A stretch of 48,422 nt of DNA from Candidatus Anaerostipes avistercoris (GTDB lineage: Bacteria > Bacillota > Clostridia > Lachnospirales > Lachnospiraceae). Of the stretch, positions 12,446-30,257 are shown piece by piece. The translations under genes and the position numbers were made by a program. The DNA is taken from assembly GCA_019119895.1 (NCBI GenBank), contig DWWD01000043.1, positions 1 to 48,422 on the forward strand, written 5' to 3'. Each line of letters begins with the position of its first letter. Position 1 is the first letter of the stretch. The notes beneath the pieces are model-generated. The model made no database searches. It was not told the origin of the DNA and saw only the letters and a list, made by a program, of their open reading frames with translations.

Positions 12446-13225
12446 TTATTCTTCTCTTGTCAGTTTTACGACAATTTCTTCCGCAATCTCTTCCACCCGT
12501 TTATGATCGGTATTTACAATAACATCTGCCGCCGCCTCATATTTCGGACGTCTTTGTTCCATCAGCTGGGAAATATATTCTGTATTCTTATGTCCTCTCA
12601 GAAGAGGCCTCTCATCACTATCTTTGACTCTTTCCAGGATTACTTTCGGTGACGCTGTCAGAAGAACGACTTTTCCATTCTTTTTCATCTCCGCCACATT
12701 TTCATCTCTCATGGCAACTCCGCCGCCGCATGAAATGATCTGGTTATTTCCCTTCTGAAGCTCGATCAAAAGGTTTGTTTCGCAGTTACGGAAATAGGTT
12801 TCCCCGTACTCCTCGAAAATCTTATTGATAGACATTCCTTCCTTCTTTACGATCACTTCATCCATCTCCACATATGGGGATGCCAGAATCTTGCTCAGAT
12901 AACTGGAGACGGTGCTCTTTCCAACTCCCATAAATCCGATCAGAAGGATATTGTGGGTAAACAGTGTCTTCGCCTGGATTCTCCGGCTGTTTTCCAGAAT
13001 ATAAGCAAAAATATCCAAAATCTCATTCTTATATGTATTCTCACTTACATGGGTCATCAGCATCTTCCTCTGATGCCTTTCCTGTTCCGGCTGCAGGATT
13101 GGCAGTCCGTTCTCTTTTTTATAGACCATGATCTCCTTAATGATGTCCATTCTCTCTTCCAGAACAGAAACAATCTTTTTGTCACAGAGATCCAGTCTTT
13201 GTCTAATCTCTTCTAACTGGTTCAT
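12446..13225 (-). CDS. aroK: Chorismate mutase-shikimate kinase fusion
   Basis: 259 residues. Residues 1-85 are an AroQ-type chorismate mutase: IRQRLDLCDKKIVSVLEERM with the catalytic Arg, Lys and Glu/Gln positions (VYKKENGLPILQPEQERHQ). Residues ~90-259 are shikimate kinase: Walker A GFMGVGKST (97-105), MDEVI (shikimate-binding Asp), YFRNCET (Arg), SCGGGVAMRD and the lid RPLLRG. It phosphorylates shikimate and converts chorismate to prephenate, two non-consecutive steps of aromatic amino acid synthesis. No other shikimate biosynthesis gene is in the same transcript. It has its own promoter 60 nt upstream. Confidence 0.93.
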   Translation of the reverse strand: MNQLEEIRQRLDLCDKKIVSVLEERMDIIKEIMVYKKENGLPILQPEQERHQRKMLMTHVSENTYKNEILDIFAYILENSRRIQAKTLFTHNILLIGFMGVGKSTVSSYLSKILASPYVEMDEVIVKKEGMSINKIFEEYGETYFRNCETNLLIELQKGNNQIISCGGGVAMRDENVAEMKKNGKVVLLTASPKVILERVKDSDERPLLRGHKNTEYISQLMEQRRPKYEAAADVIVNTDHKRVEEIAEEIVVKLTREE

Positions 13226-13325: not shown

Positions 13326-14213
13326 TCACAGGACCGAATAGTTCTTTTTTACAAAATCGACAAAATCTTTTGCCGCCGGCGCAAGATACTTATTTTTCTT
13401 TGTGACCAGATAAATATATCGTCTGATCTTCGGAGATGAAATCGGAAGTATCTCAAGATCCATCGTTTGAAGAAGCGGGATGTTTGGAATGATCGCAATC
13501 CCGAACCCGGCGGCTGTCAGCCCGGCTACAGACGAATCTTCCTCCCCTTCATATGCCACTGACGGCCGGCACTGTATCTGCTCGAACAGACGATTGATCA
13601 CCGGCCGCAGTCCGCTGTTTTTCGCAAATGCGATATATGGATATTGTATCGTATCTCTTAAGTCAACCGACTGTTTTTCGGCCAGAGGATGGCCGCACGG
13701 CGCGATCAAAACCAGCTCCTCTTCCATCACCGGATAAAAATCCAGATCACGTTCCCCTTCTGCATAGGAAGAAAAAACGAAATCATAGGTTCCTTCCTTC
13801 AGCTGAGCGATCATCTGGCTGGTGGTTCCCTGGCCAAAGGAAAAATGAATCTTATGCTCTCCTTTTCCCGCCGTATATTCTTTTAACATTCCCGGAATAA
13901 AATGACTTCCCAGCGTATAGATATAGCCGATATCCACATAGCCTCCCTGTATTCCGGAGGCTTCCAGCAGGATTCGCTTTCCCTCATCCAGCATCTCCAG
14001 CGACTGTTCCACATACCTTAAGAAAATCCTTCCGTATTTTGTAAGTTTCGCATTCCTTCCCTGCTTTTCAAACAGTTTAACGCCCAGTTCCTCTTCCAGA
14101 CATGAAATCGCATGGCTCAGGCTCGGCTGAGTGATCGACAGACTCTTTGCCGTCCGTGTATAATGCTCCTCTTTTGCCAGCGTCCGAAAATAGTATAAAT
14201 GATTTAAATTCAT
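13326..14213 (-). CDS. LysR-family regulator, divergent to enoate reductase 1
   Basis: 295 residues. The N-terminal winged HTH is intact (MNLNHLYYFRTLAKEEHYTR, ITQPSLSHAISCLEEELGVK), followed by a LysR substrate-binding domain. It is transcribed away from the flavoenzyme gene at 14352 across a 138-nt gap, the classical layout for a LysR regulator and its target. It is a paralogue of the LysR protein at 26615 (same MNLN-x-LYYF start, SQ/TQPSLS helix, EEELG-KLF segment, and DIGY in the effector domain). The inducer is unknown; by context a hydroaromatic or enoic acid is plausible. Confidence 0.93.
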   Translation of the reverse strand: MNLNHLYYFRTLAKEEHYTRTAKSLSITQPSLSHAISCLEEELGVKLFEKQGRNAKLTKYGRIFLRYVEQSLEMLDEGKRILLEASGIQGGYVDIGYIYTLGSHFIPGMLKEYTAGKGEHKIHFSFGQGTTSQMIAQLKEGTYDFVFSSYAEGERDLDFYPVMEEELVLIAPCGHPLAEKQSVDLRDTIQYPYIAFAKNSGLRPVINRLFEQIQCRPSVAYEGEEDSSVAGLTAAGFGIAIIPNIPLLQTMDLEILPISSPKIRRYIYLVTKKNKYLAPAAKDFVDFVKKNYSVL

Positions 14214-14272: not shown

Positions 14273-14281
14273 GGAAATTCA

Positions 14282-14310
14282 TTGCATTTGTATACACACT
14301 TTGCTATAAT
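14282..14310 (+). promoter_or_regulatory. Promoter of enoate reductase 1
   Basis: TTGCAT (14282-14287), 17-nt spacer, TATAAT (14305-14310). The -10 lies within a ~20-nt block (TTGCTAT then AATTATGGTAAAA) that recurs upstream of the second LysR gene at about 26539-26559. Confidence 0.7.
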
Positions 14311-14351
14311 TATGGTAAAAAGAATCAAAAAACAATTTGGAGGAATAAAAT

Positions 14352-16346
14352 ATGGCAGCGAAGAATTTCCGTAAATTATTTGAACCCTGTACAGTAAAAT
14401 CTATGACGCTGAAAAACAGAATCGTCATGACTCCAATTGGAACCAATTTTGCTGAACATACCGGGGAAGTCAATGAAAAAATCATCGAGTATTATAAACA
14501 GCGCGCAAAAGGCGGAACAGGTCTTATTATCGTAGAAGGTACCAGCGTTTACTCTCCGCAGGGAGCAGCCGGATCATATCAGCTCAGAATCGACCACGAC
14601 AATTACATTCCGGGTCTCTACCGGCTCTGTGAATCCATCCATGAATACGGCGCTAAGATCAGTATCCTGCTGAACCATGCCGGTGGAGCGGCAAATGGCA
14701 GCATGACCAATATCCAGCCGGTTTCCGCTTCTGACATCCCGACCAGCAGAGGAAGTGACATCCCAAGACCTCTGTCCAAAGATGAAATCCTTACGATCGT
14801 GGATAAATTTGCAAAAGCCGCACAGCGCGCTGTTACCGCGGGCTTTGATGCTGTTGAAATCCAGGCAGGACACGGCTATCTGTTAAATCAGTTCCTCTCT
14901 CCGATTACCAATGACCGTACAGACGAATTCGGAGGTTCAAAAGAAAACCGTGCCCGTTTCACAACTATGGTACTGAAGGCAGTTCGTGAAACTGTCGGTG
15001 AAAACATCCCGATTTTCTTAAGCATCAGTGCGGATGAACTTGCAGAAGGCGGAAATACTCTGGAAGACACTTTGGAAATCGTTGAATATTTTAAGGAATA
15101 TGTGGATGTATTCAGCGTATCTGCCGGTCTGACCTGTTCTATCCAGTATCAGTATGATGCTGATTATCTTCCGGACGGATGGAAATCTTACATGTCCAAG
15201 GCTTTAAAAGAAGCAACCGGAAAACCATGCCTTACCAGCGGAAACATCCGTGAACCGGAAGTTGCAAACCGCATCCTGGAAGATGGGGAAGCTGACTTTA
15301 TCGCCATCGGCCGCGGGCTGATCGCTGATCCTGAATGGGTCAACAAAGTACAGTTCGGCAATACTGCAGATATCAACCGCTGTATTTCATGCAACAATGG
15401 ATGTACCGCGACTCTGGGAGACGAACCGATCCGATGCACTATCAATCCATCCATTGTTTCCGGTGAATATTATAAGAACTATAAATTAAAGAAACCTTGC
15501 AACGTTGTTGTCATTGGCGGCGGCACCGCCGGACTGGAAGCTGCCTGCACTGCCGCAGAAGTCGGATGTTCTACTGTTCTGATTGAAAAGACCGGTCAGC
15601 TGGGCGGTCTCGCAAGACGGGTCGGCAAGATGCCGAACAAACGCCGTCTCGGATATTTCCCTGATTACCTGGAACACCGCGCTTCCAAATTAAAGAACCT
15701 GTTCGTGATCAAGAATACCGAGGCGTCCATTGATCTGGTAGAAGGCTGCAAGCCGGATATCGTTGTCAATGCTACCGGTTCCTATCCGCTTCTTCCGGAT
15801 ATCAAAGGATTAAAGGAAAATCTGGAAGCCGGAAATGTATCTACGATCTTTGACCTGGTGGACAATGTTGATTCCTACGAGGAAAATCTGGAAGGCAAGA
15901 AGGTCGTTGTCATTGGTGGCGGAAATGTCGGCCTCGACGTCGTTGAATTTTTCGCTCCGAGAAAATCTGATGTTACCATCGTAGAGCAGAAATCCCGGTT
16001 TGGAGAGACTCTGGACTTTATCACAAGGACCGGTTCCCTTGCAATGCTCAACAGATATGGCGTTCATCAATATCCAAACGCTTCTCTTCTGGAAGTCAAG
16101 GAGGACCGTTTCATTGTAAGACATGACTATAAAGATATTGAACTGGAATTTGATTACGGCTTCATCTGCCTGGGAATGGAATCCGCAACACCGGCATTGA
16201 AAGAGTTATACGATCATTTCCTTTATGAAGGAATCGAAGTTCTCAATATCGGTGACAGTGCTCAGACCCGCCGAATCATTGAAGGTGTCAAGGAAGGCCG
16301 TGATATCATCCTTACACTGGAGAGATTGAACTTTGTTCAAAAATAA
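14352..16346 (+). CDS. Old-Yellow-Enzyme/Fe-S enoate reductase-like flavoprotein 1
   Basis: A 664-residue enzyme of the 2,4-dienoyl-CoA reductase/2-enoate reductase/BaiCD class. Residues 1-340 form an FMN TIM barrel (MTPIGTNFAEHTGE; VEIQAGHGYLLNQF with His174 and Tyr176; SLS-type ADELAEGGNT; GRGLIADPEW). CISCNNGC plus a later Cys (344, 347, 351, 362; CX2CX3CX10C) bind a 4Fe-4S cluster. The C-terminal half has an FAD fold (VVIGGGTAGLEAACTAAEVG) and an NAD(P)H fold (VVIGGGNVGLDVVEF). It would pass electrons NADH-FAD-FeS-FMN to an activated C=C bond. Gln171 replaces the His seen in the paralogue. GGAGG precedes the ATG. The substrate is not known. Confidence 0.93.
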   Translation: MAAKNFRKLFEPCTVKSMTLKNRIVMTPIGTNFAEHTGEVNEKIIEYYKQRAKGGTGLIIVEGTSVYSPQGAAGSYQLRIDHDNYIPGLYRLCESIHEYGAKISILLNHAGGAANGSMTNIQPVSASDIPTSRGSDIPRPLSKDEILTIVDKFAKAAQRAVTAGFDAVEIQAGHGYLLNQFLSPITNDRTDEFGGSKENRARFTTMVLKAVRETVGENIPIFLSISADELAEGGNTLEDTLEIVEYFKEYVDVFSVSAGLTCSIQYQYDADYLPDGWKSYMSKALKEATGKPCLTSGNIREPEVANRILEDGEADFIAIGRGLIADPEWVNKVQFGNTADINRCISCNNGCTATLGDEPIRCTINPSIVSGEYYKNYKLKKPCNVVVIGGGTAGLEAACTAAEVGCSTVLIEKTGQLGGLARRVGKMPNKRRLGYFPDYLEHRASKLKNLFVIKNTEASIDLVEGCKPDIVVNATGSYPLLPDIKGLKENLEAGNVSTIFDLVDNVDSYEENLEGKKVVVIGGGNVGLDVVEFFAPRKSDVTIVEQKSRFGETLDFITRTGSLAMLNRYGVHQYPNASLLEVKEDRFIVRHDYKDIELEFDYGFICLGMESATPALKELYDHFLYEGIEVLNIGDSAQTRRIIEGVKEGRDIILTLERLNFVQK

Positions 16347-18349: not shown

Positions 18350-19357
18350 CTATCTTTGAAGATATGCGTCAACCAGTTCTTTAGAAACTTCATCTTCAAT
18401 TTCATCATAAATATCAGATGCAGCATCACGAATCTGTTCTTTTGTTTCATCACTTAACCTGATGATTTTTGTTCCGCTGTCTTCAATGGTTTTAATTCTG
18501 TCTTCAATCCTGTCGTCGGACGCCTGTCTCGCATATTCTTTTGCTGTCTCTGCAGCCTCAGTAATGATTTTCTGCTGGTCTTCCGGCAAATCTTTGTAAA
18601 ATTCATCGCTGACGATCAGAGAAATATAATGCGGAAGATGATTGGTTTCCACAACATAATCCTGCTGCTCATATAACTTGCTGGAAACAATGACCTCATA
18701 CGGATTTTCCTGTGCATCGATCGTACCCTGCTGAAGTCCGATATATACTTCACTGAAGGTCATCGGCGTAGGATTCGCTCCCAGGTCTTTCCAGAAATCC
18801 AGATGATAACTGTTTTCCATTGTACGGATTTTCTGTCCTTTAAAATCACTGATGTCTCTGATTTCCTTATTGGTGGACATGACACGGAATCCCTGATCCG
18901 CATATCCAAGGAGTTTATAGCCTCCGTCCTCATAGACCTTTTCCATTTTCTGATAGAATTCAGGATTATCCACTGCTTCCCGGGCCTCCTCAATCGTAGA
19001 GAAAGCACTCGGCAGGTCAAATACCGCTGTATCCGGGAGAAATGTTACCTGTGGCGCCGTATTCTGAACGACAAACGGGATATCTCCGTCCCTGCAGCTT
19101 TCCAGCAGCTCCCGGTCTCCTCCCAGCGTACTGTTTGGATATACTTCTATTTTCATCTTTCCATCGCTTAAACGGCTCACCTCGTCGGCAAACTTTTCCG
19201 CGTAAATCTGCGTTACAGTATCCTCCGGACTGGAAGTTCCCAGCGGCCACGCATAGCGCTGCACCTCATCGGAAGACTGTTTTTTCTTACATCCTGATAA
19301 GGCAATTCCGATCACCAGGACACTTAATACAATAAGACATACTTTCCATTTCTTCAT
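18350..19357 (-). CDS. dctP: TRAP transporter solute-binding protein (DctP type)
   Basis: 335 residues. The start is set at MKKWKVCL (19357), preceded by GGGAGGTG; an upstream ATG at 19381 would disturb the signal peptide. The hydrophobic stretch ends in the lipobox ALSGC, so the protein is a lipoprotein on the outer face of the membrane. DctP landmarks are present: YAEKFADEVSRLSDGKMKIEVYPN in two parts, GYADQGFRVMSTN, the carboxylate-binding Arg in GQKIRTMEN, and GLQQGTIDAQENP. It captures an organic acid for the DctQ/DctM pair encoded just upstream (1 nt gap to dctM). Quinate, shikimate or a phenolic acid are candidates from context only. Confidence 0.95.
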   Translation of the reverse strand: MKKWKVCLIVLSVLVIGIALSGCKKKQSSDEVQRYAWPLGTSSPEDTVTQIYAEKFADEVSRLSDGKMKIEVYPNSTLGGDRELLESCRDGDIPFVVQNTAPQVTFLPDTAVFDLPSAFSTIEEAREAVDNPEFYQKMEKVYEDGGYKLLGYADQGFRVMSTNKEIRDISDFKGQKIRTMENSYHLDFWKDLGANPTPMTFSEVYIGLQQGTIDAQENPYEVIVSSKLYEQQDYVVETNHLPHYISLIVSDEFYKDLPEDQQKIITEAAETAKEYARQASDDRIEDRIKTIEDSGTKIIRLSDETKEQIRDAASDIYDEIEDEVSKELVDAYLQR

Positions 19358-19358
19358 C

Positions 19359-20657
19359 TTACGCACCTCCCAGTAAAACAAGACTGATCTGAGGGATAAA
19401 AGTAATCAGCACCAGAGCCGCCAGGAAACATACGATCAGCGGCAGCGCTTTCCTTGCAATTTCCATGATCGGAATATCCGTAAGGGAGGACGCCACAAAC
19501 AGATTGACGCCGATCGGCGGCGTTACAAATCCGATTGCCAGATTGACGACCATCATCACTCCAAAGTGGATCGGATTCATTCCGATTGCCGTAGCAATGG
19601 GCAGAAGAATCGGAGTTAAGATTAAGATCGCCGGTGTTGTATCCATGACCATTCCCACAAACAGCAGGAAAATATTGATTACAAGAAGAATCACGATTTC
19701 ATTATGGAAATTTCCAAGGATCCATTCACTGATGGTCTGAGGGACCTGCATCAAAGTCAGCACCCTGGAAAATGCGGTAGACGCAGCCAGAATGAACAAA
19801 ATCGGTGCATAGGTTCTCACGCCCTCTACCAGCATCGGCCATAAATCCTTCACTTTCATGGATTTGTATATAAACATGCTGACGATGATGGAATAAAATA
19901 CGGAGATAACTGCAGCTTCTGTAGGGGAAGCAATTCCTGCATAAATACATCCCAGAATAATGACCGGGCTCAAAATTGCAAAGAAACTGTCTTTAAATAC
20001 CCCGAAAAATCCTCTTTCATGAAGTTCATCAACTGCTTTTCGGATTTTTTCCTTATCTTCTCCATGTTTTCTGCAGTAAAACACTGCGTAAACCATCATC
20101 AGGAGACCGATCAGGATGCCCGGAACAATTCCCGCGATAAACAGGTCGCTGACAGATTCTCCCGAAGCTATGCCGAACATAATAAACGGAATGCTTGGAG
20201 GGATAATAACTCCCAGCCCTCCTGCCACCGCAACAATGGATGTGGCAAAGACCTTGTCATATCCCAGCTTGATCAGGATCGGAATCGTCATACTCCCCAC
20301 TGCTGCAACCGTCGCTGGGCCGGAACCTGAAATAGCGCCGTAAAACAGACAGGTTACGATCACCGCACATGGCATTCCTGCCGTCAGCCTGCCGATAAAA
20401 AATACAAATACATCAAAAATCTTTTTGGAAATGCCGCCTTTTGCCATGATCATTCCGGACAGAACGAACATCGGCACTGCCAGAAGCGGAAAACTGTCAA
20501 TTCCGCCCAGCATAGAACGGATCACAAATGTGCCGCTTGCCGTAAAAGACGGATCAAATGCTCCCGGAAGTACGGAAACGATGCCAAGACCGATAGAAAT
20601 TGGAATCGCTATGATCAGGCATAAGAAAAATATAATAAATACTGCTAATGCTGACAT
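19359..20657 (-). CDS. dctM: TRAP transporter large permease (DctM)
   Basis: 432 residues, about 12-13 membrane helices, full length for DctM. Characteristic segments are FFIGRLTAGMPCAVIV, the GAISGSGPATVAAVGSMTIP loop, GVIIPPSIPFIMFGIASGES, and near the C-terminus GMVMDTTPAILILTPILLP and GFVTPPIGVNLFV. It is the sodium-coupled transport subunit. Its ATG, behind GGAGGAGGAAGG, overlaps the dctQ end by 13 nt, and its stop is 1 nt before dctP, so dctQ-dctM-dctP is one translationally coupled unit. Confidence 0.96.
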   Translation of the reverse strand: MSALAVFIIFFLCLIIAIPISIGLGIVSVLPGAFDPSFTASGTFVIRSMLGGIDSFPLLAVPMFVLSGMIMAKGGISKKIFDVFVFFIGRLTAGMPCAVIVTCLFYGAISGSGPATVAAVGSMTIPILIKLGYDKVFATSIVAVAGGLGVIIPPSIPFIMFGIASGESVSDLFIAGIVPGILIGLLMMVYAVFYCRKHGEDKEKIRKAVDELHERGFFGVFKDSFFAILSPVIILGCIYAGIASPTEAAVISVFYSIIVSMFIYKSMKVKDLWPMLVEGVRTYAPILFILAASTAFSRVLTLMQVPQTISEWILGNFHNEIVILLVINIFLLFVGMVMDTTPAILILTPILLPIATAIGMNPIHFGVMMVVNLAIGFVTPPIGVNLFVASSLTDIPIMEIARKALPLIVCFLAALVLITFIPQISLVLLGGA

Positions 20658-21145
20658 CCTTCCTCCTCCTTATTTTTTTTTACTGCGATTTTAAACTCGA
20701 TGATCCAGCGCTGTATGATCCGAAACGCCACAAGAACAAAACTTACCAGCGGCGCTGCCTGAATATAGTACATAGGAATTCCGCATGCCGGACTCACCTG
20801 ACCGCTTTCAAAGGCACTCCTTAAATACATCACAGCATAAGGGATCAGATAGAAGAAGAATACCAGCTCAATGGTGTGATTTACGACTTTGAAAATCGCC
20901 TGTCCTCTTCTCGGAAACATCCCGACAAACTGTTCGATTTTAATTGAAATACATTTTTTTGTACAATAACTAACGCTTAAAAAACCGGACCAGATGAATA
21001 AATACCTTGTTATTTCCTCTGACCAGGATAAAGAAGCGCCCAGAGCGTATCTGGCAAATACCTGAATTCCCATGATCACTGTCATTGCAATCAACAGCGC
21101 TACCATGAGAAACTCTTCCAGATTCTCATTCAGCCATTTTAACAT
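20645..21145 (-). CDS. dctQ: TRAP transporter small permease (DctQ)
   Basis: 166 residues with four predicted membrane helices. The family hallmark QVFARYALGASLSWSEEITRYLFIW is present in two halves, with the conserved W-(S/T)-E-E. It forms the membrane complex with DctM. It starts 21 nt after the GntP-type permease gene with AAAGGAAG before the ATG, and overlaps dctM. Separate dctQ and dctM genes (no fusion) are present. Confidence 0.93.
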   Translation of the reverse strand: MLKWLNENLEEFLMVALLIAMTVIMGIQVFARYALGASLSWSEEITRYLFIWSGFLSVSYCTKKCISIKIEQFVGMFPRRGQAIFKVVNHTIELVFFFYLIPYAVMYLRSAFESGQVSPACGIPMYYIQAAPLVSFVLVAFRIIQRWIIEFKIAVKKNKEEEGCQH

Positions 21146-21166
21146 AATACTGCTTCCTTTCCTCTC

Positions 21167-22471
21167 TTAATAAATGATGACCGCCACTATAACTGCGCAC
21201 AAAGAACCAAGCATCGGCGCAAGAACAGATGTGACAAAGACATACCAGTAACTTTCCGCCAGACTTAAGTTCATCCATCGAAGCTGCGCTACCATTCCGC
21301 CCGCATTCGGAAGGGTATTCATCCCCGTGGCACATGCCGGTGCCCGTCTGTGAAGCGCACCTGCGTTAGCTCCCTGAGCAAGGAGCCCGTCAGACAAATG
21401 CTCAAAAAACATGGCAATCGCCGATGTTCCGCTTCCTAGAATTCCCGCCAGAACATTCAGTCCGATGAATTCTGTTACATATGCGTTCAGATCCAGATTC
21501 ATAGCAAAATCAATGATACTCTGGAATCCCGGACAGCTCTGGAGCACGCCGGAAAATCCAAGAATCGCCGCCGCCATGATCGTGGCTCCAATTCCATTGT
21601 TGACTCCTTTGTCCAGGATTTTCTTCACCGACTTCAGCTGCTTCCGGCAAAAGATTACGATCGACAGAGATCCGATAAACAAACTTAATACTACGATCGC
21701 ATTGGTATCCATTTCTGTCAGATTGGATAACGCCAGAACCAGACCGACAGATAATACCAGTGGAATCAACGCAATACCAAATCCCGGAAGATCATCCCTC
21801 GTCGGAACAATTTTCACCGGTTTCGATTCATCGATGGCTGTTCCTTCCTTGATCGCTGCTTTTTTGGCAGCATGCACCATATAAAAATATCCGATGCAGA
21901 TTGACACTATAAACGCCACCCAGCCAAGGATCGGAGCAGAGCCCATGGAAGTTCCCAGATATTGAGCCGGCATGATATTCGTGATATTGATCGCATATGG
22001 AAGCATTGCTGAACAGGTCGCACCGATAAAGATGATTCCCGGAATCATGCGGTACGGATATCCCGCCTGCTTCATCATGATCGTAGCGATCGGCGCCAGT
22101 ACAAACAGTACGACAAAACCAGATACCCCGACATACACAAATACGGTAGAAAGCAGGGTAATGGAGAAAATCACTCTCTTCGCTCCCAGTTTTTCTGTTA
22201 TGACATTGGCAATGGTTTCCGCACATCCGGATTCACCCATCAGCTCACCAAATACGGCTCCGATCACAAGCACAAACAGATTGCCCTGTATAAAACCTAC
22301 ATATCCCTCAGCATAGGATCCCAGCGCATCCCACCAGTCCAGTCTGCTGGTCAGTATGATAATAAAGGAAACAAGGATCGTAGATGTAAAGACATCGACC
22401 CCTTTCCAGACTACGACGACAAAAATAACCGCCGCAAGTAAAAGTCCGATTACTGAAGTTGTTGTTGCCAT
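21167..22471 (-). CDS. GntP/citrate-type organic acid permease
   Basis: 434 residues, about 12 hydrophobic helices. Segments such as VLVIGAVFGELMGESGCAET, FVYVGVSGFVVLFVLAPIA and GVLQSCPGFQSIID resemble GntP-family gluconate/H+ and related anion symporters, with a central re-entrant GIGATIMAAAILGFSGV. The N-terminal pattern also fits the wider ion-transporter superfamily. It is the second organic-acid carrier in this operon, between the hydrolase (31 nt) and dctQ (21 nt). The substrate is unknown; a hydroxy acid is likely by family. Confidence 0.85.
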   Translation of the reverse strand: MATTTSVIGLLLAAVIFVVVVWKGVDVFTSTILVSFIIILTSRLDWWDALGSYAEGYVGFIQGNLFVLVIGAVFGELMGESGCAETIANVITEKLGAKRVIFSITLLSTVFVYVGVSGFVVLFVLAPIATIMMKQAGYPYRMIPGIIFIGATCSAMLPYAINITNIMPAQYLGTSMGSAPILGWVAFIVSICIGYFYMVHAAKKAAIKEGTAIDESKPVKIVPTRDDLPGFGIALIPLVLSVGLVLALSNLTEMDTNAIVVLSLFIGSLSIVIFCRKQLKSVKKILDKGVNNGIGATIMAAAILGFSGVLQSCPGFQSIIDFAMNLDLNAYVTEFIGLNVLAGILGSGTSAIAMFFEHLSDGLLAQGANAGALHRRAPACATGMNTLPNAGGMVAQLRWMNLSLAESYWYVFVTSVLAPMLGSLCAVIVAVIIY

Positions 22472-22502
22472 TCTTTCTTTTCCTTCTTTTTTCTTTTTCT
22501 TC

Positions 22503-23423
22503 TTATTTCATTTCTTCGTCTTCTCCTGCAGTGCGGATGTTCCGAAATGGTTTCCTGTATGGATTTTTCCCGCCATAGAAACATTCATCCAGGAAATCAA
22601 CACATCTCCCAATGTTTTTGTCACTTTTCATTTCCGGTGAACCGTGAGGTTCGCCGTCGAAAAGATCCAGAACCACTCTGTCCTCTCCGCATACTTCTTT
22701 CACTTTCTGATACATGTAAACAGACTGGTGATAATCTACTACCCTGTCATCCGTTCCATGCTGCAGAAGCATCGGCGGACAATTCTCATCCACATACCGG
22801 ATTGGGCTGACCCTGCAGGTTCTCTCCGGATACAAAATAGGATTGTACCCCAGCAGATCTGTCATCTCCGTGCCAAAGTGTTCGGCAGAGCATAATTCGC
22901 TCATGGTATACCATGCAATGGCACACTGAATCTCTGACGACGCACGCTCTCCTGTCGTAAGGTCGTCACAGTCTGCCCGGTCTCCGGTGACAGCCATCAG
23001 CTGTGTCACAACTCCACCGGCTGAATTCCCCCAGACCGCAAAGCGCTCCGGATCCAGATTCAGCTCTCTGGCATGTCTCCGCAGATATCTGACTGCGGCT
23101 TTGCCGTCAATCAGCTGGGCCGGCCATTTTGCTTCCTGACAGAGCCGGTATTCCACAGTGGCCACTGCGTATCCCTGGGTCACAGGCAGACACATGGATT
23201 TGATATAATGACTTCTTTTGTGTCCGGTCACAAATGCTCCGCCGTGGAAAAGTATCACCACAGGAAATGGTCCTTCTCCTTCATCCGGATAAAAGATATC
23301 CAGAATCTGGTTCACCGACTGATCTGCATAGGAAAGATCCAGTTTCGTCTCCCTGAACTGCGTCACATCGATTTCCGGCTCTGCTTCCAGGAATTCCTCC
23401 CGATTTCGAAATACATCTGCCAT
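22503..23423 (-). CDS. Alpha/beta-hydrolase (HSL/carboxylesterase type)
   Basis: 306 residues from MADVFRNREE (23423), chosen because AAGGAGG lies 8 nt before it; a longer in-frame start at 23456 has no site. The oxyanion motif FHGGAFVTG, nucleophile elbow GNSAGG (Ser), acid in GTDDRVVDYHQS (Asp) and FDGEPHGSPEM (His) make a complete triad. There is no signal peptide, so it acts in the cytoplasm on small imported esters. It lies between aroD and two organic-acid transporters; hydrolysis of a plant ester such as a caffeoylquinate-type compound would feed the neighbouring genes. That substrate is inference. A terminator-like hairpin separates it from aroD. Confidence 0.9.
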   Translation of the reverse strand: MADVFRNREEFLEAEPEIDVTQFRETKLDLSYADQSVNQILDIFYPDEGEGPFPVVILFHGGAFVTGHKRSHYIKSMCLPVTQGYAVATVEYRLCQEAKWPAQLIDGKAAVRYLRRHARELNLDPERFAVWGNSAGGVVTQLMAVTGDRADCDDLTTGERASSEIQCAIAWYTMSELCSAEHFGTEMTDLLGYNPILYPERTCRVSPIRYVDENCPPMLLQHGTDDRVVDYHQSVYMYQKVKEVCGEDRVVLDLFDGEPHGSPEMKSDKNIGRCVDFLDECFYGGKNPYRKPFRNIRTAGEDEEMK

Positions 23424-23454
23424 CTCATGATCCTCCTTTCTTCTTTCTACAAGC

Positions 23455-23493
23455 AAAAAACTGACAGTCTTTCTTCCATCCTGCCAGTTTTTT
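23455..23493 (-). terminator. Internal terminator between aroD and the hydrolase gene
   Basis: Minus-strand stem AAAAAACTGGCAG ... CTGTCAGTTTTTT (one mismatch) right after the aroD stop and 30 nt before the hydrolase start. It divides the eight-gene cluster into an upstream enzyme/carrier part and a downstream hydrolase/transporter part, and may be leaky. Confidence 0.75.
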
Positions 23494-23509
23494 GTTTTAT
23501 GTCTATTCT

Positions 23510-24271
23510 TTAAAGGCTTTTATGAAGTAATTCCAAAACAATTTTCAGATCTTCCACACCCATCTGTCCCGGGGCAGAAGCCTTCTTTGCTGCGCCAAAG
23601 GTCAGCGCTGATCCGAAAACTTCTCCGCACAGACGGCTGATGACTCCGGTTCCTGCCATTGACATTGTAATGATCGGCCGGTCAGCATACTCTGTATACA
23701 TTTCTTCTGTTGCGGAAAGCAGGGTCAGCACATCCTTTTTGCAGTTCGGCATAACCGCTATTTTCGGAATATCCGCATCCAGCTCCTGCATTTTACGGAG
23801 CCTCTTTACGATTTCATCTTTCTCCGGTGTCTTGTCGAAGTCATGATTGGAAGCAACGACTTTTACGCCGCATGCATGTGCATTTTTCACGATTTCTTTT
23901 ACAATGTCATCTCCGGTGAATACTTCCACATCCACAAGATCTACATAACCGGACTGTGCCGCCTTAATATTCAATTCCTTATATGGCTCTGGCTCGATGA
24001 CTTTTTCTCCGCCTTCTTTTGATGTGCGGAATGTAAACAGAATCGGAGTATCTCCGAGAGCTTCTCTCAGATCCTTTAATACATCTTCCACTTTATCAAA
24101 TTCAAATACATTTTCAAACCAGTCGACACGCCATTCTACTACATCCACCGGAATGCTGTCAAAAGTCTTTGCTTCTGTGATGATCTCTTCTTTCGTTACT
24201 CCAACAATCGGGACACAGATTTTCGGGATCCCCGCTCCGATTTCAATATTTCTTACTTTCACCGTATTCAT
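23510..24271 (-). CDS. aroD: Type I 3-dehydroquinate dehydratase
   Basis: 253 residues from ATG 24271; a GTG at 24277 is only 2 nt from AGGAGG, while the ATG has 8 nt. With this start the catalytic residues fall at His143 (ASNHDF) and Lys170 (DIPKIAVMP), the same numbers as in the Salmonella/E. coli enzymes. EWRVDWFENV and FTFRTSKEGG complete the substrate site. It interconverts 3-dehydroquinate and 3-dehydroshikimate through a Schiff base. Placement beside a YdiB-like dehydrogenase and an MFS carrier, not with other aro biosynthesis genes, suggests a catabolic role. E. coli has the same trio as ydiM/N-ydiB-aroD. Confidence 0.96.
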   Translation of the reverse strand: MNTVKVRNIEIGAGIPKICVPIVGVTKEEIITEAKTFDSIPVDVVEWRVDWFENVFEFDKVEDVLKDLREALGDTPILFTFRTSKEGGEKVIEPEPYKELNIKAAQSGYVDLVDVEVFTGDDIVKEIVKNAHACGVKVVASNHDFDKTPEKDEIVKRLRKMQELDADIPKIAVMPNCKKDVLTLLSATEEMYTEYADRPIITMSMAGTGVISRLCGEVFGSALTFGAAKKASAPGQMGVEDLKIVLELLHKSL

Positions 24272-24306
24272 TGGCACTTCCTCCTAATATTTGCCGATTT
24301 GAATTC

Positions 24307-25497
24307 CTATTTTGCAGCTTCTTCTGCATTCTTTAATAATACACCATATCTGGCGTTTACGAAAACTGCAAGAAGCACGCCGATGACTGTAATGACAATG
24401 TTCATTACAATAACTGCAGATGAAGTCATATTTGACGCTGCTGTAAGAATCGTATAATTACATAAACTTGACGCGATCATAACCAAACTTGTGATGGTTC
24501 CTTTGATCTTAGGGAACAGGTCATTAACAACTGCTGTTGCCATCTGAAGGACTCCTCCTGCTGCCGCATAACCGATCACAAACGCACCAACATAGCAGAT
24601 CATCGGTGTTTTGATCAGGTATACTAATACAAGCATGACAGCTGAAATTGCCGGATAGATTACAAGGAATCTTACCTGTTTGAACTTTGTAATCAGAATA
24701 CTTGTTACAACCAGCGCAGCCATCGTTCCTGCAGAATAATAAGTCTGCATAATGGATACATTCTCAGAAGCGATTCCCGCAACATCTGTACCGAATGTCT
24801 GAGCACAGTTTAACCATAACTGGAAAGTTGCTGTACTTGTAAATCCAATCAGAATCAGGGCAACACTTTCAACGGAGAAGTGTGCATTTTTCAGATTGCT
24901 GATAAAGGATTCGGATTTTCCGCTCTCAGACGCTGCCGGAAGCGGTGCAAAGATTGCCAGGATTCCCAGAACTGCAATCACAATACCGCATACCAGTGGC
25001 AGCATCAGATATGACATACTGGTTCCTGCTACAACGCCTAAGAAGAATGGCATTAAAAGCTGTGCGATGGAAATAAAGAACTTAATTCCCATGGTCGCAA
25101 TACCGGTATACTTGTAAATGATCTCAGCAACTGCAGGATATGTAGCTGTATCAAGGAATGAGTTTGCGATTCCTCCTAAAACAGCCGCGATATAAGCAAT
25201 CGTTGTGTTTGGCGAAAATGCGATTCCTACAAAAAAGATAACATAAGAAGCGCATCCAATCAATACAGAAAGACGGCGTCCCAGTTTGTCAGATAAAGGT
25301 CCCGCAAACGGAAGGGAGATCAGTCGTCCCAGTCCCAGTGCAGCCGCAATGGAGGTAACCGCCATAACATCGTTTAATCCCCACTGCTCAGAAAGCATTT
25401 CTTTTACAACCTGCTGGCTCAGGATAGAACATCCAATTCCGTGTATAAAATAGTTTAAATAAAGAATTAACGCACTTGGTAAATATTTTTTATCCAT
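24307..25497 (-). CDS. MFS transporter, probable shikimate/quinate carrier
   Basis: 396 residues with 12 predicted helices. MFS motif A appears as FAGPLSDKLGRRLSVLIG after helix 2; the central loop (ASESGKSESFISNLKNAHF) divides two six-helix halves. It starts 30 nt after the ydiB-like gene and precedes aroD by 35 nt. Its position matches the YdiM/YdiN carriers next to ydiB and aroD in E. coli, so a hydroaromatic acid is the best guess for substrate; the sequence alone does not show it. Confidence 0.88.
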   Translation of the reverse strand: MDKKYLPSALILYLNYFIHGIGCSILSQQVVKEMLSEQWGLNDVMAVTSIAAALGLGRLISLPFAGPLSDKLGRRLSVLIGCASYVIFFVGIAFSPNTTIAYIAAVLGGIANSFLDTATYPAVAEIIYKYTGIATMGIKFFISIAQLLMPFFLGVVAGTSMSYLMLPLVCGIVIAVLGILAIFAPLPAASESGKSESFISNLKNAHFSVESVALILIGFTSTATFQLWLNCAQTFGTDVAGIASENVSIMQTYYSAGTMAALVVTSILITKFKQVRFLVIYPAISAVMLVLVYLIKTPMICYVGAFVIGYAAAGGVLQMATAVVNDLFPKIKGTITSLVMIASSLCNYTILTAASNMTSSAVIVMNIVITVIGVLLAVFVNARYGVLLKNAEEAAK

Positions 25498-25527
25498 TTT
25501 TAATAAGTCCTCTCATTTTTCCTGTTT

Positions 25528-26403
25528 CTAATCATATTTGATATCCAATACTTCTTTCATATGATCGATCGGCATATGCTGTCCTGTCCAGAGATGGAAT
25601 GCTGCATCACCCTGGAACAGCATCATGCCAAGACCATTCATTGTCTTGCATCCTACTTCTTTCGCCATTTTAAGAAGCGCTGTCTCTCTTGGAGCATAAA
25701 TTGTATCTGTTACGATCAAATCCGGGCGGAAGAAAGATTTATCCGGTACAACAGACTGTCCTTCCATTGGTTTCATTCCAACGCCGGTTGCCTGCGCGAA
25801 TAAATAACTGTCAGCGATTTCTTCTTTTAATTTCTCTTTATCATCCAGATCATAGAGATTTACGACACAATCTGTGTTGGCACGAATCTTTTCCACTGTT
25901 TTTTCCGCATTCTCCCAGAACTTGTCTTTAATATTGAAGATTGACATTTCTTTGACACCATCCAGGGCAGCCTGAATTTCGATGGCTGTTGCGGCTCCAC
26001 CGGCCCCTGCGATTGTCATTTTTTTGCCAATCACGTCAATATCATTATCTTTTAATGACTGCATATAGCCGATTCCATCTGTAATATGTCCGATCAATTT
26101 TCCATTATCGTTTACGATTGTGTTAACTGCGCCAGCCATTTCTGCAGCCGGTGAGAGCTCGTCCAGATACTGTCCTACAACTGTTTTATTCGGCATGGAT
26201 ACGTTGGATCCTACCATTTTTAAAGCTCTCAGACCTTTGACCGCATCTTCCAGAGTATCATTGTCTACCTCAAACGCAAGATACGCATAATCCAGACCCA
26301 GAGTAGCGAATGCTTCATTGTGCATTGCCGGTGAGCTGGAATGTCTGATCGGATATGCCATCAAACCAATAAGTTCTGTGTGTCCTGTAATTCTCTCTGC
26401 CAT
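25528..26403 (-). CDS. ydiB: Shikimate/quinate 5-dehydrogenase, YdiB-like
   Basis: 291 residues. The N-terminal substrate domain has PIRHSSSPAMHNEAF and VSMPNK with catalytic Lys73; VSMPNK (instead of VT(I/M)PHK) and DELSPAAEMAGAVNTIVND resemble E. coli YdiB more than AroE. Asp109 lies in HITDG, where most relatives read YNTDG, so Ile107 replaces Asn. A glycine-rich nucleotide loop AGAGGAATAIEIQ follows. It oxidises or reduces shikimate and/or quinate with NAD(P). It is the first gene of the minus-strand cluster, with AAAGGAG upstream and a good promoter. The role as catabolic rather than biosynthetic enzyme is inferred from neighbours. Confidence 0.92.
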   Translation of the reverse strand: MAERITGHTELIGLMAYPIRHSSSPAMHNEAFATLGLDYAYLAFEVDNDTLEDAVKGLRALKMVGSNVSMPNKTVVGQYLDELSPAAEMAGAVNTIVNDNGKLIGHITDGIGYMQSLKDNDIDVIGKKMTIAGAGGAATAIEIQAALDGVKEMSIFNIKDKFWENAEKTVEKIRANTDCVVNLYDLDDKEKLKEEIADSYLFAQATGVGMKPMEGQSVVPDKSFFRPDLIVTDTIYAPRETALLKMAKEVGCKTMNGLGMMLFQGDAAFHLWTGQHMPIDHMKEVLDIKYD

Positions 26404-26479
26404 TTTCTTTCTCCTTTAGTTTAAAAATTTAACGTTACCATCACCCAAAAGTTAATTTTTTAACAACCTTACGTCCTTC

Positions 26480-26509
26480 ATTATATACGAATTTTATTGA
26501 TACTTCTAA
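26480..26509 (-). promoter_or_regulatory. Promoter of the ydiB-MFS-aroD operon
   Basis: Minus-strand TTAGAA (26509-26504), 18-nt spacer, perfect TATAAT (26485-26480), then a ~70-nt leader. It lies in the 211-nt gap shared with the divergent LysR gene. Confidence 0.6.
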
Positions 26510-26529
26510 TATATCTTTTACTCACAATC

Positions 26530-26546
26530 AATAGCTTTTTGCTATT
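26530..26546. promoter_or_regulatory. Candidate LysR operator between ydiB and lysR2
   Basis: A perfect dyad AATAGC-TTTTT-GCTATT (extended arms AATCAATAGC / GCTATTAATT match 9 of 10), just upstream of both divergent promoters. The T-N11-A-like size fits LysR proteins. Confidence 0.55.
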
Positions 26547-26614
26547 AATTATGGTAAAATAATAGCATTCGATACATATTTTGATAGAAAATAGGAAGGG
26601 ACAGGATACATTTT

Positions 26615-27505
26615 ATGAATTTAAACCAGTTATATTATTTTCAAAAGGTCGCAACACTGCAGCATTACCACCAGGCGGCAGAGAAACTTAACATTTCCCA
26701 GCCAAGCCTGAGCCGCTCCATCTCCAACCTGGAGGAAGAACTGGGGCTTAAATTGTTTGTAAAAAAGGGCCGCAATATTGAACTGACCAAATATGGCCAT
26801 GTTTTCCTGGATCATGTCAACCGCATTCTGGAAGAAGTCAAAATTGCCCAGGATAAGATGAAGTCTCTTTCTTCTTCCGCAGGAGGCCATATTGATATCG
26901 GTTATGTGTTCCCTCTGGCGAAATCTTATATTCCCCATATGGTGCGGAGTTTCTTAAACAAAGATCAGAACCATGATATTACGTTTTCTCTGAGCCAGGA
27001 GATTACGAAAGAGCTGATCAAAGACCTGAAAACAGAAAAATACGATGTCGTTTTCGGCTCCAAAGTCCCGGATGAAACCGAGATTGAATTTATTCCGGTC
27101 GTGAATCAGGAAATGGTGATCATCACACCGCCTGGGCATCCGCTGAAATATAAGAAGCCCCTGGTGCTGGAAGATCTGATGGACTATCCGGTCATTGGCT
27201 ATGACCGGACTTCCGGTCTCGGAAAATATACGAATTCTATTTACGAACAGAATCATATGAAGCCGTCTATCGCCTTTGAATCTTCTGATGAAAACGCCAT
27301 TGCTTCTCTGGTGGCGGAAAATTTTGGTGTTGGATTTGTAGCTCATGTGGAGTCCCTCAAAGAATATAATGTAAATATTCTTCACCTGGACAATGTAAAA
27401 CCATACCATACTGTTTACATGGCATATTTGAAAAACCATCCCAGAATCCCTGCAGTACAGAAGTTTATCGATTTCGTAAAAGAAACAATAGATAAAATCT
27501 ATTGA
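26615..27505 (+). CDS. LysR-family regulator, paired with enoate reductase 2
   Basis: 296 residues. The N-terminal HTH (MNLNQLYYFQKVATLQHYHQ; ISQPSLSRSISNLEEELGLK) and the effector domain (HIDIGYVFPLAKSYIPHMVR...) are intact. It is divergent from the ydiB-MFS-aroD operon and runs in the same direction as the flavoenzyme gene downstream, so it can control both sides. It is a paralogue of the LysR protein at 13326. GGAAGGGACAGGA precedes the ATG. It is the best candidate for the island's regulator; the inducer is unknown. Confidence 0.93.
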   Translation: MNLNQLYYFQKVATLQHYHQAAEKLNISQPSLSRSISNLEEELGLKLFVKKGRNIELTKYGHVFLDHVNRILEEVKIAQDKMKSLSSSAGGHIDIGYVFPLAKSYIPHMVRSFLNKDQNHDITFSLSQEITKELIKDLKTEKYDVVFGSKVPDETEIEFIPVVNQEMVIITPPGHPLKYKKPLVLEDLMDYPVIGYDRTSGLGKYTNSIYEQNHMKPSIAFESSDENAIASLVAENFGVGFVAHVESLKEYNVNILHLDNVKPYHTVYMAYLKNHPRIPAVQKFIDFVKETIDKIY

Positions 27506-27523
27506 TTTTCAAGAAAATATCAA
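27502..27523. promoter_or_regulatory. Dyad directly upstream of the enoate reductase 2 promoter
   Basis: TTGAT-N12-ATCAA (TTGATTTTC/GAAAATATCAA arms) overlaps the end of lysR2 and abuts the -35 of the next gene. It may be a regulator site; its spacing is wide for Fnr-type and acceptable for LysR-type binding. Confidence 0.4.
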
Positions 27524-27524
27524 T

Positions 27525-27553
27525 TTGTTAAATGTTAGACCGGATGTTATAAT
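27525..27553 (+). promoter_or_regulatory. Promoter of enoate reductase 2
   Basis: TTGTTA (27525-27530), 17-nt spacer, TATAAT (27548-27553), with an ~80-nt leader to the ATG at 27642. It shows the gene need not depend on lysR2 readthrough. Confidence 0.7.
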
Positions 27554-27641
27554 GATTTCATTGAAACACACCCAAAAAGTTTTTATATACAGCCTCATAA
27601 AGAAAACAAGATTCGTTTATTTTTTTGGAGGTTCCAATTCT

Positions 27642-29639
27642 ATGAAATCTAATTACAAAAATATTTTTTCACCATTGACAATCAAAAATATGACCATGAA
27701 AAACAGAATCATGATGACTCCGATGGGAACCAATTATGGTGAACAGACAGGTGAAATGAGCTTCCTTCATATTAATTATTATGAAGAGAGAGCCAAAGGC
27801 GGCGTCGGACTGATCATGGTGGAAAACGCAAGTGTTGACTCCCCGCTCGGATCTAACGGGACAACCCAGATCCGAATTGACCATGACAATTACATGCCTC
27901 GTTTTTTCAAGTTATGCGAAACAATTCACTCCCACGGGGCATGTATTGGTCTGCAGTTAAATCATGCCGGCGCTTCTGCTCAGTCTAAGAGAACCAATAT
28001 GCAGCCGGTTTCTGCATCTGACATTCCTTCCAAGGAAGGCGGAGAAATTCCTCGTCCACTGGAAAAAGACGAAATTTACGCAATCGTTAAGAAATATGGA
28101 GAAGCTGCTGCCCGTGCTCAGGCTTCCGGATTCGACTGTGTGGAAATCCACGCAGGACATTCCTACCTGATCAGTCAGTTTATGTCTCCTACAACGAATA
28201 AAAGAACCGACGAATTCGGCGGATGTCCGGAAAACAGAGCCCGTTTTGCAAAACTGGTCATCGAAGAAGTCCGCAGACAGGTGGGACCGATGTTCCCGAT
28301 TTTCGTACGTCTAAGCGCCGATGAATTCGTGGAAGGCGGAAATACGCTGGAAGATACATTAGAGCTTGTTTCTTATTTTGAAAAAGAAGTGGATGCCTTT
28401 GATGTATCCGCAGGATTAAACGGCTCTATTCAGTATCAGATCGACGCAAATTATCTGAAAGACGGCTGGAGATCTTATATGGCAAAAGCCGTAAGAGAAA
28501 AATACGGAAAACCATGTGTTACCATGGGAAATATCCGTGATCCGCGAGTGGCAGATGACATTCTTGGCAGAGGCGACGCCGATATCATCGGAATGGGCCG
28601 CGGACTGATCGCAGACCCTCACTGGGTGAAAAAAGTTGCTTCTGGCAGAGAAGATGAGATCAGAAAATGTATTTCCTGCAACATCGGTTGTGCCGGAAAC
28701 CGTATCGGTGTAAACCGCCCGATCCGCTGCACCATCAATCCGACGATCAACTCAGGATATGATTATAAAAAACATAAAATCAACAAGCCTTGCAATGTTA
28801 TTGTCATCGGTGGAGGAACGGCCGGTCTGGAAGCTGCCTGTACAGCCGCTGAAGTCGGATGCACTACTTTCTTATTTGAAAAGAAAGATGTACTGGGCGG
28901 ATTATCCGTAGAAATCTCCAAGATTCCGGATAAGAAACGTCTGAGTGATTTCCCGGCTTATCTGGTAAACCGCGCTTCCAAGCTTACCAACCTGTTTATC
29001 TTTAAGGGTCAGGAAGCGACTCTGCCTCTGATCAGGGCGCTTCATCCAAATATTATCGTGAACGCTACCGGTTCCAATCCGCTGCTTCCGCCGATCAAAG
29101 GTCTTCATGACCATATTGATAAGGAAGGCTCCAAAGTTGCTTCTATCAGTGGAATGATCAACAGCCTTGCTGATTATCCGGAAGACTGCTCCGGCAAAAA
29201 AGTCGTTGTCGTAGGAGGCGGCGCCGTAGGGCTTGACGTCGTTGAATATTTTGCGCCAAAAGGTGCCGATGTCAGCATCGTGGAAATGATGCCTCAGATT
29301 GGTAAAGATCTGGATCCGGTTTCCAAGTGTGGAACTAACGCTCTAATGAAGAAATACCATGTAAATCAGATGCCAAATACGGCTCTCTGTGAAGTCAAGG
29401 CAGATTCTTTCGTTGTAAAAGCCGGAGAAGAAGAAAAAGAACTGCCATTTGACTATGGTTTCGTATGTCTTGGAATGCGCGCCAATGCGCCGATCCTTGA
29501 TGAAGTCAGAGATGCTTTCGCAGATTCTGATGTGGAAATCCTCAATATCGGTGACAGTGTCCGCGCAAGACGTATCATTGACGGCGTTCAGGAAGGACAT
29601 AATATTTTAAGTACTCTTGCAGATATGGACTATCTGTAG
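27642..29639 (+). CDS. Old-Yellow-Enzyme/Fe-S enoate reductase-like flavoprotein 2
   Basis: 665 residues from MKSNYKNIFS (27642, GGAGG upstream); a longer in-frame start at 27525 overlaps the promoter and is rejected. It is collinear with the 664-residue paralogue at 14352. FMN barrel: MTPMGTNYGEQTGE, VEIHAGHSYLISQF (His170, His173, Tyr175), GRGLIADPHW. Fe-S cysteines 343, 346, 350 and 363 (CX2CX3CX12C). FAD fold VIGGGTAGLEAACTAAEVG and NAD(P)H fold VVVGGGAVGLDVVEY. It keeps the His170 that paralogue 1 has as Gln, so the two probably differ in substrate. Expected activity: NADH-dependent reduction of an alpha,beta-unsaturated acid or enone. Confidence 0.93.
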   Translation: MKSNYKNIFSPLTIKNMTMKNRIMMTPMGTNYGEQTGEMSFLHINYYEERAKGGVGLIMVENASVDSPLGSNGTTQIRIDHDNYMPRFFKLCETIHSHGACIGLQLNHAGASAQSKRTNMQPVSASDIPSKEGGEIPRPLEKDEIYAIVKKYGEAAARAQASGFDCVEIHAGHSYLISQFMSPTTNKRTDEFGGCPENRARFAKLVIEEVRRQVGPMFPIFVRLSADEFVEGGNTLEDTLELVSYFEKEVDAFDVSAGLNGSIQYQIDANYLKDGWRSYMAKAVREKYGKPCVTMGNIRDPRVADDILGRGDADIIGMGRGLIADPHWVKKVASGREDEIRKCISCNIGCAGNRIGVNRPIRCTINPTINSGYDYKKHKINKPCNVIVIGGGTAGLEAACTAAEVGCTTFLFEKKDVLGGLSVEISKIPDKKRLSDFPAYLVNRASKLTNLFIFKGQEATLPLIRALHPNIIVNATGSNPLLPPIKGLHDHIDKEGSKVASISGMINSLADYPEDCSGKKVVVVGGGAVGLDVVEYFAPKGADVSIVEMMPQIGKDLDPVSKCGTNALMKKYHVNQMPNTALCEVKADSFVVKAGEEEKELPFDYGFVCLGMRANAPILDEVRDAFADSDVEILNIGDSVRARRIIDGVQEGHNILSTLADMDYL

Positions 29640-29823: not shown

Positions 29824-30249
29824 ATGAATCATCATTCTTACCATTATCTCATCATGTCCGTTCACATGATGTTTCAAAAGGAATTACTGAACGCTCTGAA
29901 AGATACCGGTCTGTCCATGGGACAGCCCAAGATCATTGATTATCTGAAAGATCACGATGGCGTCAGTCAGAAGGATCTTGCTTTCGGGTGTCATATCGAA
30001 CCTGCGTCTCTTACTTCGCTGCTGAACCGCATGGAGAAGCAGGGATTGATCGAACGCCGCATGCTCCACGGCAACCGCCGTTCCCTGTATGTTTTTCTCA
30101 CGAAAAAGGGATGGGAGATGTCTCCTATTATTTCCGGCGCATTTGACCGGCTGGAAGAAAAAATTTTTGAGAATATCCCGGATTCCGACCGGGATCATTT
30201 GATGAAAGTATTAGAAAAAATATATGAAACTATGCTTGAAAAGGAGTGA
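29824..30249 (+). CDS. MarR-family regulator
   Basis: 141 residues. The winged HTH is clear: LGQP-type GQPKIIDYLKDHDGVSQKDL, CHIEPASLTSLLNRMEKQGL (recognition helix), ERRMLHGNRRSLYVFLTKKG (wing). It dimerises and usually represses its own operon on binding a small ligand; the palindromes at 29778-29796 fit that. AGGAGGGC precedes the ATG. It shares a transcript with the membrane protein downstream, whose gene starts 8 nt after its stop. Confidence 0.92.
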   Translation: MNHHSYHYLIMSVHMMFQKELLNALKDTGLSMGQPKIIDYLKDHDGVSQKDLAFGCHIEPASLTSLLNRMEKQGLIERRMLHGNRRSLYVFLTKKGWEMSPIISGAFDRLEEKIFENIPDSDRDHLMKVLEKIYETMLEKE

Positions 30250-30257
30250 CTTATAAA

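Follow-up and report, generated by a model that had tools for sequence, protein, structure and literature searches.

An ene-reductase-type flavoenzyme in a quinate/shikimate gene island of Candidatus Anaerostipes avistercoris: a candidate electron-acceptor module for plant acids

Why would a gut clostridium keep an ene-reductase-type flavoenzyme beside its genes for quinate and shikimate conversion? The question is raised by a stretch of 48,422 nt from Candidatus Anaerostipes avistercoris (contig DWWD01000043.1, assembly GCA_019119895.1), hereafter the window. Here, a YdiB-type quinate/shikimate dehydrogenase (25528..26403, minus strand) and a type I 3-dehydroquinate dehydratase, AroD (23510..24277, minus strand), share an island with a QuiR-like LysR regulator, LysR2 (26615..27505, plus strand), and an Fe-S/FMN/FAD ene-reductase-type flavoenzyme of the OYE family, OYE2 (27642..29639, plus strand). 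On balance, and with modest confidence, we favor the view that the island forms an inducible module through which hydroaromatic plant acids are used as electron acceptors. A sequence-only reading of the DNA had named a ydiB-like dehydrogenase, an MFS carrier, a type I dehydroquinase, a hydrolase, a GntP-type permease and a full TRAP transporter, with a divergent LysR gene and an enoate-reductase-type flavoenzyme. Our Pfam and NCBIfam profile searches bore out each of these identities, all named island genes being full-length open frames with family matches. The dehydrogenase scores 523 bits against NF001313 (cut-off 431) and 342.7 against the quinate/shikimate model NF009390, slightly below the cut-off of 349; its best PDB match is 3tnl (3.6e-124), with the E. 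coli YdiB structures at about 1e-92. AroD matches PF01487 (1.6e-80) and TIGR01093 (257.5 bits), and the identities of the two proteins to their E. coli namesakes are 49% for YdiB and 57.5% for AroD.

One line of evidence for this view comes from the neighborhoods of OYE2 in relatives. GTDB genomes were scanned with a 12-sequence OYE2 alignment, giving at least 592 pattern matches and at least 572 relatives; the best 80 loci were analyzed, and a gene was counted as nearby when it lay within the fetched flank of a locus. Identity to OYE2 leaves a gap among these 80: 33 loci stand at 48% or more, which we call the OYE2 clade, and the other 47 do not exceed 38%. AroD is found nearby in 23 of the 33 clade loci versus 1 of the 47 others (Fisher 2.7e-11), and a shikimate dehydrogenase in 25/33 versus 1/47 (Fisher 8.5e-13); one or the other accompanies 26 of the 33, and many loci have two dehydrogenases. 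A QuiR-like LysR (at least 36% identity) is likewise nearby in 22/33 versus 0/47, and the TRAP large permease DctM in 13/33 versus 0/47. Because related loci are not independent, changes were also counted on a tree of 92 OYEs, made by a quick method without bootstrap, in which the clade comprises 43 rows including two OYE1 sequences (see below) with an SH-aLRT of 100: linkage takes 8 changes, compared with a mean of 21.9 and a minimum of 18 in 300 shuffles of the 76 labelled rows. The clade spans Bacillota, Actinomycetota and Pseudomonadota, with linkage seen in Bacillota and Actinomycetota. Gene orders vary, from OYE-YdiB-MFS-AroD in Enterococcus and YdiB-AroD-OYE in Agrilactobacillus to AroD-YdiB divergent to OYE in Actinomycetota. 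In one Clostridium locus (L087), YdiB, a type II dehydroquinase (PF01220, 5.7e-54) and OYE2 are consecutive; since an unrelated enzyme with the same activity takes the place of AroD, it can be argued that the OYE needs the dehydroquinase reaction.

The link was also seen from the AroD side. Among 299 genomes of the family, 178 had an AroD match, and 40 neighborhoods of high-ranking matches were fetched, some of whose contigs stop within the island (e.g., L057). OYE2 (61-91% identity) is present in 11 of these 40, all of them among the 20 with AroD at 66-85% and none among the 20 with AroD at 49-68%. DctM (at least 60% identity) lies near AroD in 12 of the 40, and the solute-binding protein DctP adjoins AroD in many relatives. 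A comparative search of this kind had been suggested by the sequence-only reading, and the linkage of the flavoenzyme with ydiB and aroD in related genomes turned out to be conserved.

What kind of enzyme is OYE2? Its likely start is 27642 rather than 27525, Met1 being invariant in 12 orthologues, which gives a length of 665 residues with Oxidored_FMN (PF00724, 2.3e-78) and Pyr_redox domains and a four-cysteine cluster motif. With the OYE/2,4-dienoyl-CoA reductase family (FadH, BaiCD, NCR) it shares the fold domains, the four cluster cysteines and the catalytic His/His/Tyr/Arg positions. The cluster cysteines 343, 346, 350 and 363 are kept in 41/41 clade rows, OYE1 rows apart, and so in the alignment are the active-site positions Q105, H170, H173, Y175 and R223, whose role we take to be that of their counterparts in YqjM. 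The clade nevertheless stands separate from FadH, BaiCD and NCR, and residues 1-340 include 36 positions specific to it. Among the clade-specific residues are the basic or amide side chains R78, N107, R117, K131, N260, Q264, Q266 and R277, residues that would fit a polar acid as substrate. The best named match for both Oxidored_FMN proteins found in the genome, OYE2 and its paralogue OYE1, is the BaiCD model, at 473 and 476.8 bits, respectively, under a cut-off of 825, and neither reaches the cut-off of any matching NCBIfam equivalog model listed.

OYE1 (14352..16346, plus strand; 57% identity to OYE2) also lies in the window and forms a second pair with another QuiR-like regulator, LysR1 (13326..14213, minus strand). 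The pair spans 13326-16346 and is next to a chorismate mutase-shikimate kinase fusion gene. In this genome and a congener (L056), OYE1 retains the Fe-S cysteines and shows, in OYE2 numbering, the changes Q105L, H170Q and R223S (or N), together with the loss of R117 and K131. Q105, H170 and R223 are kept in 41/41 clade rows and in 48/49 background OYEs. With these losses, OYE1 probably has another function or is impaired.

The control region between ydiB and LysR2 bears on the direction of the pathway. A candidate Rex-type operator, AAGTTAA-N4-TTAACAA (26449..26466, plus strand), lies 46 bases upstream of the ydiB start and matches at 12/14 positions the site TTGTTAA-N4-TTAACAA, of which examples are given in Table 5 of PMC5886521. 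When 7-mers in the divergent gaps were screened, A/T-rich words came out on top, with a best single count of 22 versus at most 21 in resampled sets; the words AACAACC and ACAACCT, half of the Rex-type site, occurred 12 times each versus fewer than 0.8 expected. Counted at 12/14 or better, the site is found in 16 of 24 ydiB/MFS-LysR2 gaps versus 0.22 in resampled sequence, and in 13 of 18 versus 0.18 once near-duplicate loci, picked out by hand, are removed; its half-site ranks 1 of 105 permuted half-sites in these gaps. Upstream of OYE2, it is found in 9/40 versus 0.22 (8/33 versus 0.23 without near-duplicates) and again ranks first. Perfect sites occur in L101 (position 8733) and in L063 (position 7783, 36 bases before the ydiB start), the latter outside the counted set. 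The operator is significant across relatives only, not in the window alone. Rex repression is lifted at high NADH; therefore, if Rex acts here, an NADH-using pathway would be favored over an NADH-making one, and the recurrence of the operator adds weight to the idea of an electron sink.

The second layer of control may be shikimate itself. Both regulators have the Lmo0488 structure 5ted as their best PDB match, LysR1 at 3.2e-51 (next entry 1.8e-23) and LysR2 at 2.1e-38 (next entry 1.2e-22). This entry is described as QuiR bound to shikimate in a passage of PMC11602165 that cites Prezioso 2018. A repeat search gave a candidate LysR operator at 26540..26567, the inverted repeat TGCTATTAATT / AAATAATAGCA, and a similar element, TTTGCTATAATTATGGTAAA, lies in the LysR1-OYE1 gap. 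A TGCTAT/ATAGCA LysR box, considered across 27 loci, is found again in some of the ydiB-LysR or LysR-OYE gaps, though not consistently, and was not counted as evidence.

Based on these findings, we propose a scheme in which hydroaromatic acids serve as electron acceptors; its substrate, product and direction, and the action of the Rex and LysR proteins here, we infer. The TRAP and YdiN-like carriers would import shikimate or quinate, and YdiB with NAD+ would oxidize quinate to 3-dehydroquinate and shikimate to 3-dehydroshikimate, the two products being connected by AroD through dehydration. The C=C bond of shikimate is conjugated to the carboxylate only, which makes shikimate a poor OYE substrate, while 3-dehydroshikimate is an enone, the textbook kind. 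The YdiB oxidation would therefore come first, because it turns this poor C=C bond into that of an enone. OYE2 could then reduce the C=C bond of 3-dehydroshikimate, with electrons passing from NADH through FAD and the Fe-S cluster to FMN, and a YdiB-type dehydrogenase could reduce the leftover ketone to give dihydroshikimate, which would be excreted. With 1 NADH made and 2 used, the net disposal would be two electrons per shikimate or quinate. The QuiR-like LysR would turn the set on with shikimate, Rex-type repression would be lifted at high NADH, and AroD would meanwhile serve aromatic biosynthesis. The logic of oxidizing to an enone, reducing the C=C bond and then reducing the ketone is known from bile-acid chemistry. 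A broader proposal is held more tentatively, at slightly under even chances: the OYE2 clade may be the missing ene-reductase of hydroaromatic acid reduction, in a portable module of YdiB, dehydroquinase and OYE with MFS or TRAP uptake, which in Bacillota and Actinomycetota would use shikimate or quinate as electron acceptor under the control of shikimate (QuiR) and, in gut clostridia, of NADH (Rex).

Several observations weigh against these proposals. AroD is the sole dehydroquinase found in this genome, and of 41 genomes that carry type I AroD, ours included, 40 lack a type II dehydroquinase, so the linkage could partly reflect biosynthesis. Seven of the 33 clade loci show neither AroD nor a dehydrogenase, four with full flanks (L089, L091, L094 and L095) and three with a contig end on one side (L090, L106 and L117). 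The Rex-type pattern was recognized after the k-mer screen of the same gaps, although the consensus itself is external, and 8 of the 24 ydiB/MFS-LysR2 gaps are without the site. In the window, the OYE2 promoter matches at only 10/14 positions, and matches with up to 3 mismatches number 6 versus 3.4 expected, so that chance could account for the ydiB site taken by itself; at the same stringency, L077 has 3 versus 1.6 expected. No non-coding Rex-type site was found at the island promoters of the Enterococcus, Paenibacillus, Agrilactobacillus and Actinomycetota loci.

The biosynthetic genes raise the most serious alternative, namely that quinate and shikimate are scavenged to make chorismate, AroD and the chorismate mutase-shikimate kinase being ordinary enzymes of biosynthesis and OYE2 having an unrelated substrate. 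Genome searches returned one type I dehydroquinase, the AroD of the island, and no type II enzyme, together with two DAHP-synthase-family matches, one dehydroquinate synthase (AroB) and one chorismate synthase (AroC); since AroD is the only dehydroquinase found and these other steps are present, it must also serve de novo synthesis. The kinase fusion (12446..13225, minus strand; PF01202 6.6e-46, PF01817 9.6e-18) adjoins LysR1, and a similar gene is near the island in several relatives, which again suits scavenging. It also corrects the sequence-only reading, which had placed the biosynthetic shikimate kinase elsewhere: one kinase is this fusion within the window and a second is on another contig. 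The idea of a separate catabolic AroD was dropped on the same dehydroquinase counts. From the earlier proposal that the set serves import and use of plant-derived acids, the hydroaromatic theme stands, given the QuiR-like regulators, YdiB, AroD, the YdiN-like carrier and TRAP; a purely dissimilatory role does not, given the double duty of AroD and the biosynthesis genes. Nevertheless, we consider scavenging unlikely as an explanation of the island. The genome has DAHP synthase, AroB and AroC for de novo synthesis as well as a second kinase, OYE2 follows AroD/YdiB through rearranged gene orders, and Rex-type control fits redox balance better than supply. Moreover, 18 of the 19 genomes reached via OYE2-clade loci were searched; 17 of them carry type I AroD, and in 4 two copies pass the cut-off, the second of which lies outside the island, as placed by coordinates.

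Other uses of the same intermediates have less in their favor. OYE2 might reduce cinnamates, if the BD-FAE alpha/beta hydrolase of the operon (esterase type; 22503..23456, minus strand; PF20434 2.1e-50) split chlorogenate into caffeate and quinate and OYE2 reduced the caffeate side chain; enzymes of this class are often active on acids of this kind. This is quite improbable, because the hydrolase is a local insertion found in 1 of the 33 OYE2-clade loci outside this genome (L079, 73%), versus 26 of 33 for AroD/YdiB. Aromatization, as proposed for Listeria, would convert the acids to 3-dehydroshikimate and then to protocatechuate via a dehydroshikimate dehydratase, which we take Lmo2234 to be. 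The QuiR-like nature of LysR1 and LysR2 agrees with it, and in three relatives (L070, L073 and L078) a second module holds an Lmo2234-like protein (PDB 2g0w, 7.3e-96) beside a further OYE (some 30-33% identical to OYE2), a second shikimate dehydrogenase and an MFS carrier. In our genome, no gene of the Lmo2234-like kind, the one dehydratase type searched for, was seen in the scanned window frames, and BLAST (E up to 0.01) matched none of its four PF01261 proteins to the Lmo2234-like proteins of these relatives; the protocatechuate route, which would also leave the OYE without a role, is therefore very improbable and was dropped. Finally, OYE2 could act oxidatively and turn 3-dehydroshikimate into gallate. 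BaiCD, the best named family model though below cut-off, works in the oxidative direction; the Rex-type operators argue for NADH consumption and no gallate-using gene was recognized in the annotated part of the window, so we give this little credence at all.

How far is the electron-acceptor module a new system? The kind of system is known from the Listeria qui and E. coli ydi genes; what is new is the role of the OYE, the Rex link and the breadth. Two features of a QuiR-type operon are found here: a QuiR-like LysR, and quinate/shikimate dehydrogenase and dehydroquinase in the operon. In Listeria, too, a QuiR-like LysR stands beside an OYE homologue, lmo0488 (QuiR) and lmo0489 being adjacent locus tags, and the genes that follow are presumably AroE and AroD. 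The relevant passage of PMC10269891 describes lmo0489 as a homologue of OYE with an unknown reaction, and that of PMC13082608 gives it 664 residues, close to the 665 of OYE2. By locus tag, description and length, rather than by sequence, lmo0488-lmo0489 look like the same pair as the LysR-OYE pair here. The island differs from the Listeria qui operons in that no Lmo2234-like gene was found with it, and in its linked TRAP transporter, its Rex-type operators and its two LysR-OYE pairs, one with an altered active site.

The overall reaction proposed here resembles one reported for lactic acid bacteria, in which quinic acid is converted to shikimic and on to dihydroshikimic acid and serves as hydrogen acceptor (PMC13204703, in a passage citing other work). 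The earlier claim that coupling hydroaromatic chemistry to such a reductase would be a new route is thus too strong, in view of this report and of the Listeria pair. In our searches of open-access literature, we found no gene assigned to the dihydroshikimate-forming reduction and no shikimate-reducing OYE, and the OYE2-YdiB-AroD operons of Enterococcus and Agrilactobacillus are candidate genes for the lactic-acid-bacterial reduction. E. coli has a YdiN/YdiM-like carrier, YdiB and AroD together in ydiM-ydiN-ydiB-aroD; the carrier of the island (24307..25497, minus strand; PF07690 2.7e-26) is 30% identical to YdiN (E 2.8e-53) and 31% to YdiM (E 9.2e-51). In contrast to the island, the K-12 locus (L166, 1773789-1784677) has no OYE, and ydiF (CoA transferase), ydiO (acyl-CoA dehydrogenase) and ETF genes come after aroD; the Pfam scan of the window genes surrounding the island found none of these three types. 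We speculate that the E. coli set is possibly another way to the same reduction, a CoA-type counterpart of the OYE step.

Plant food is rich in quinate and shikimate, partly in the form of chlorogenic acid, and their reduction has been described for gut bacteria as well as for lactic acid bacteria. If our proposal is true, an enzyme family would be named for the ring C=C step, the reaction of the Listeria OYE lmo0489 would be explained, diet acids would be tied to redox balance in gut clostridia, and the gene set would mark out those gut bacteria in which plant acids serve as electron acceptors. The one dehydroquinase found in this genome is a case of its own: it has to work for biosynthesis and, should the electron-sink reading hold, for electron disposal too.

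The remaining island genes lie on the minus strand with tight spacing from ydiB (start 26403) to dctP (end 18350), which makes one operon possible; LysR2 and OYE2 are oriented opposite to this run. The TRAP transporter consists of DctP (18350..19381, PF03480 5.1e-81), whose N-terminus is lipoprotein-like by eye, the large permease DctM (19359..20657, PF06808 5.9e-110) and the small permease DctQ (20645..21145, PF04290 1.2e-32), all on the minus strand; its specificity is not inferable from PDB matches. Between the TRAP genes and the hydrolase gene is the GntP-type permease (21167..22471, minus strand), with a PF02447 match (1.8e-12) that is weak yet above cut-off. It was found in none of the 40 AroD neighborhoods and none of the 33 OYE2-clade loci. 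Hence the argument of the sequence-only reading from three transporter classes keeps its TRAP and MFS genes and was dropped as a whole, GntP and the hydrolase being local.

Shikimate-dehydrogenase-type proteins number two in the genome, one in the window and one on contig C46, the latter gene adjoining a glycerol-kinase-like frame recognized by eye. Near the LysR1-OYE1 pair there is an iron alcohol dehydrogenase at 11218-12402. A 356-aa frame at 17227-18297 is without a Pfam match; the congener (L056) has a copy of 52% identity in the same position. At 30246-31334, after a MarR gene, a DUF6198 membrane domain and a cytidylate-kinase-like domain are fused in one frame.

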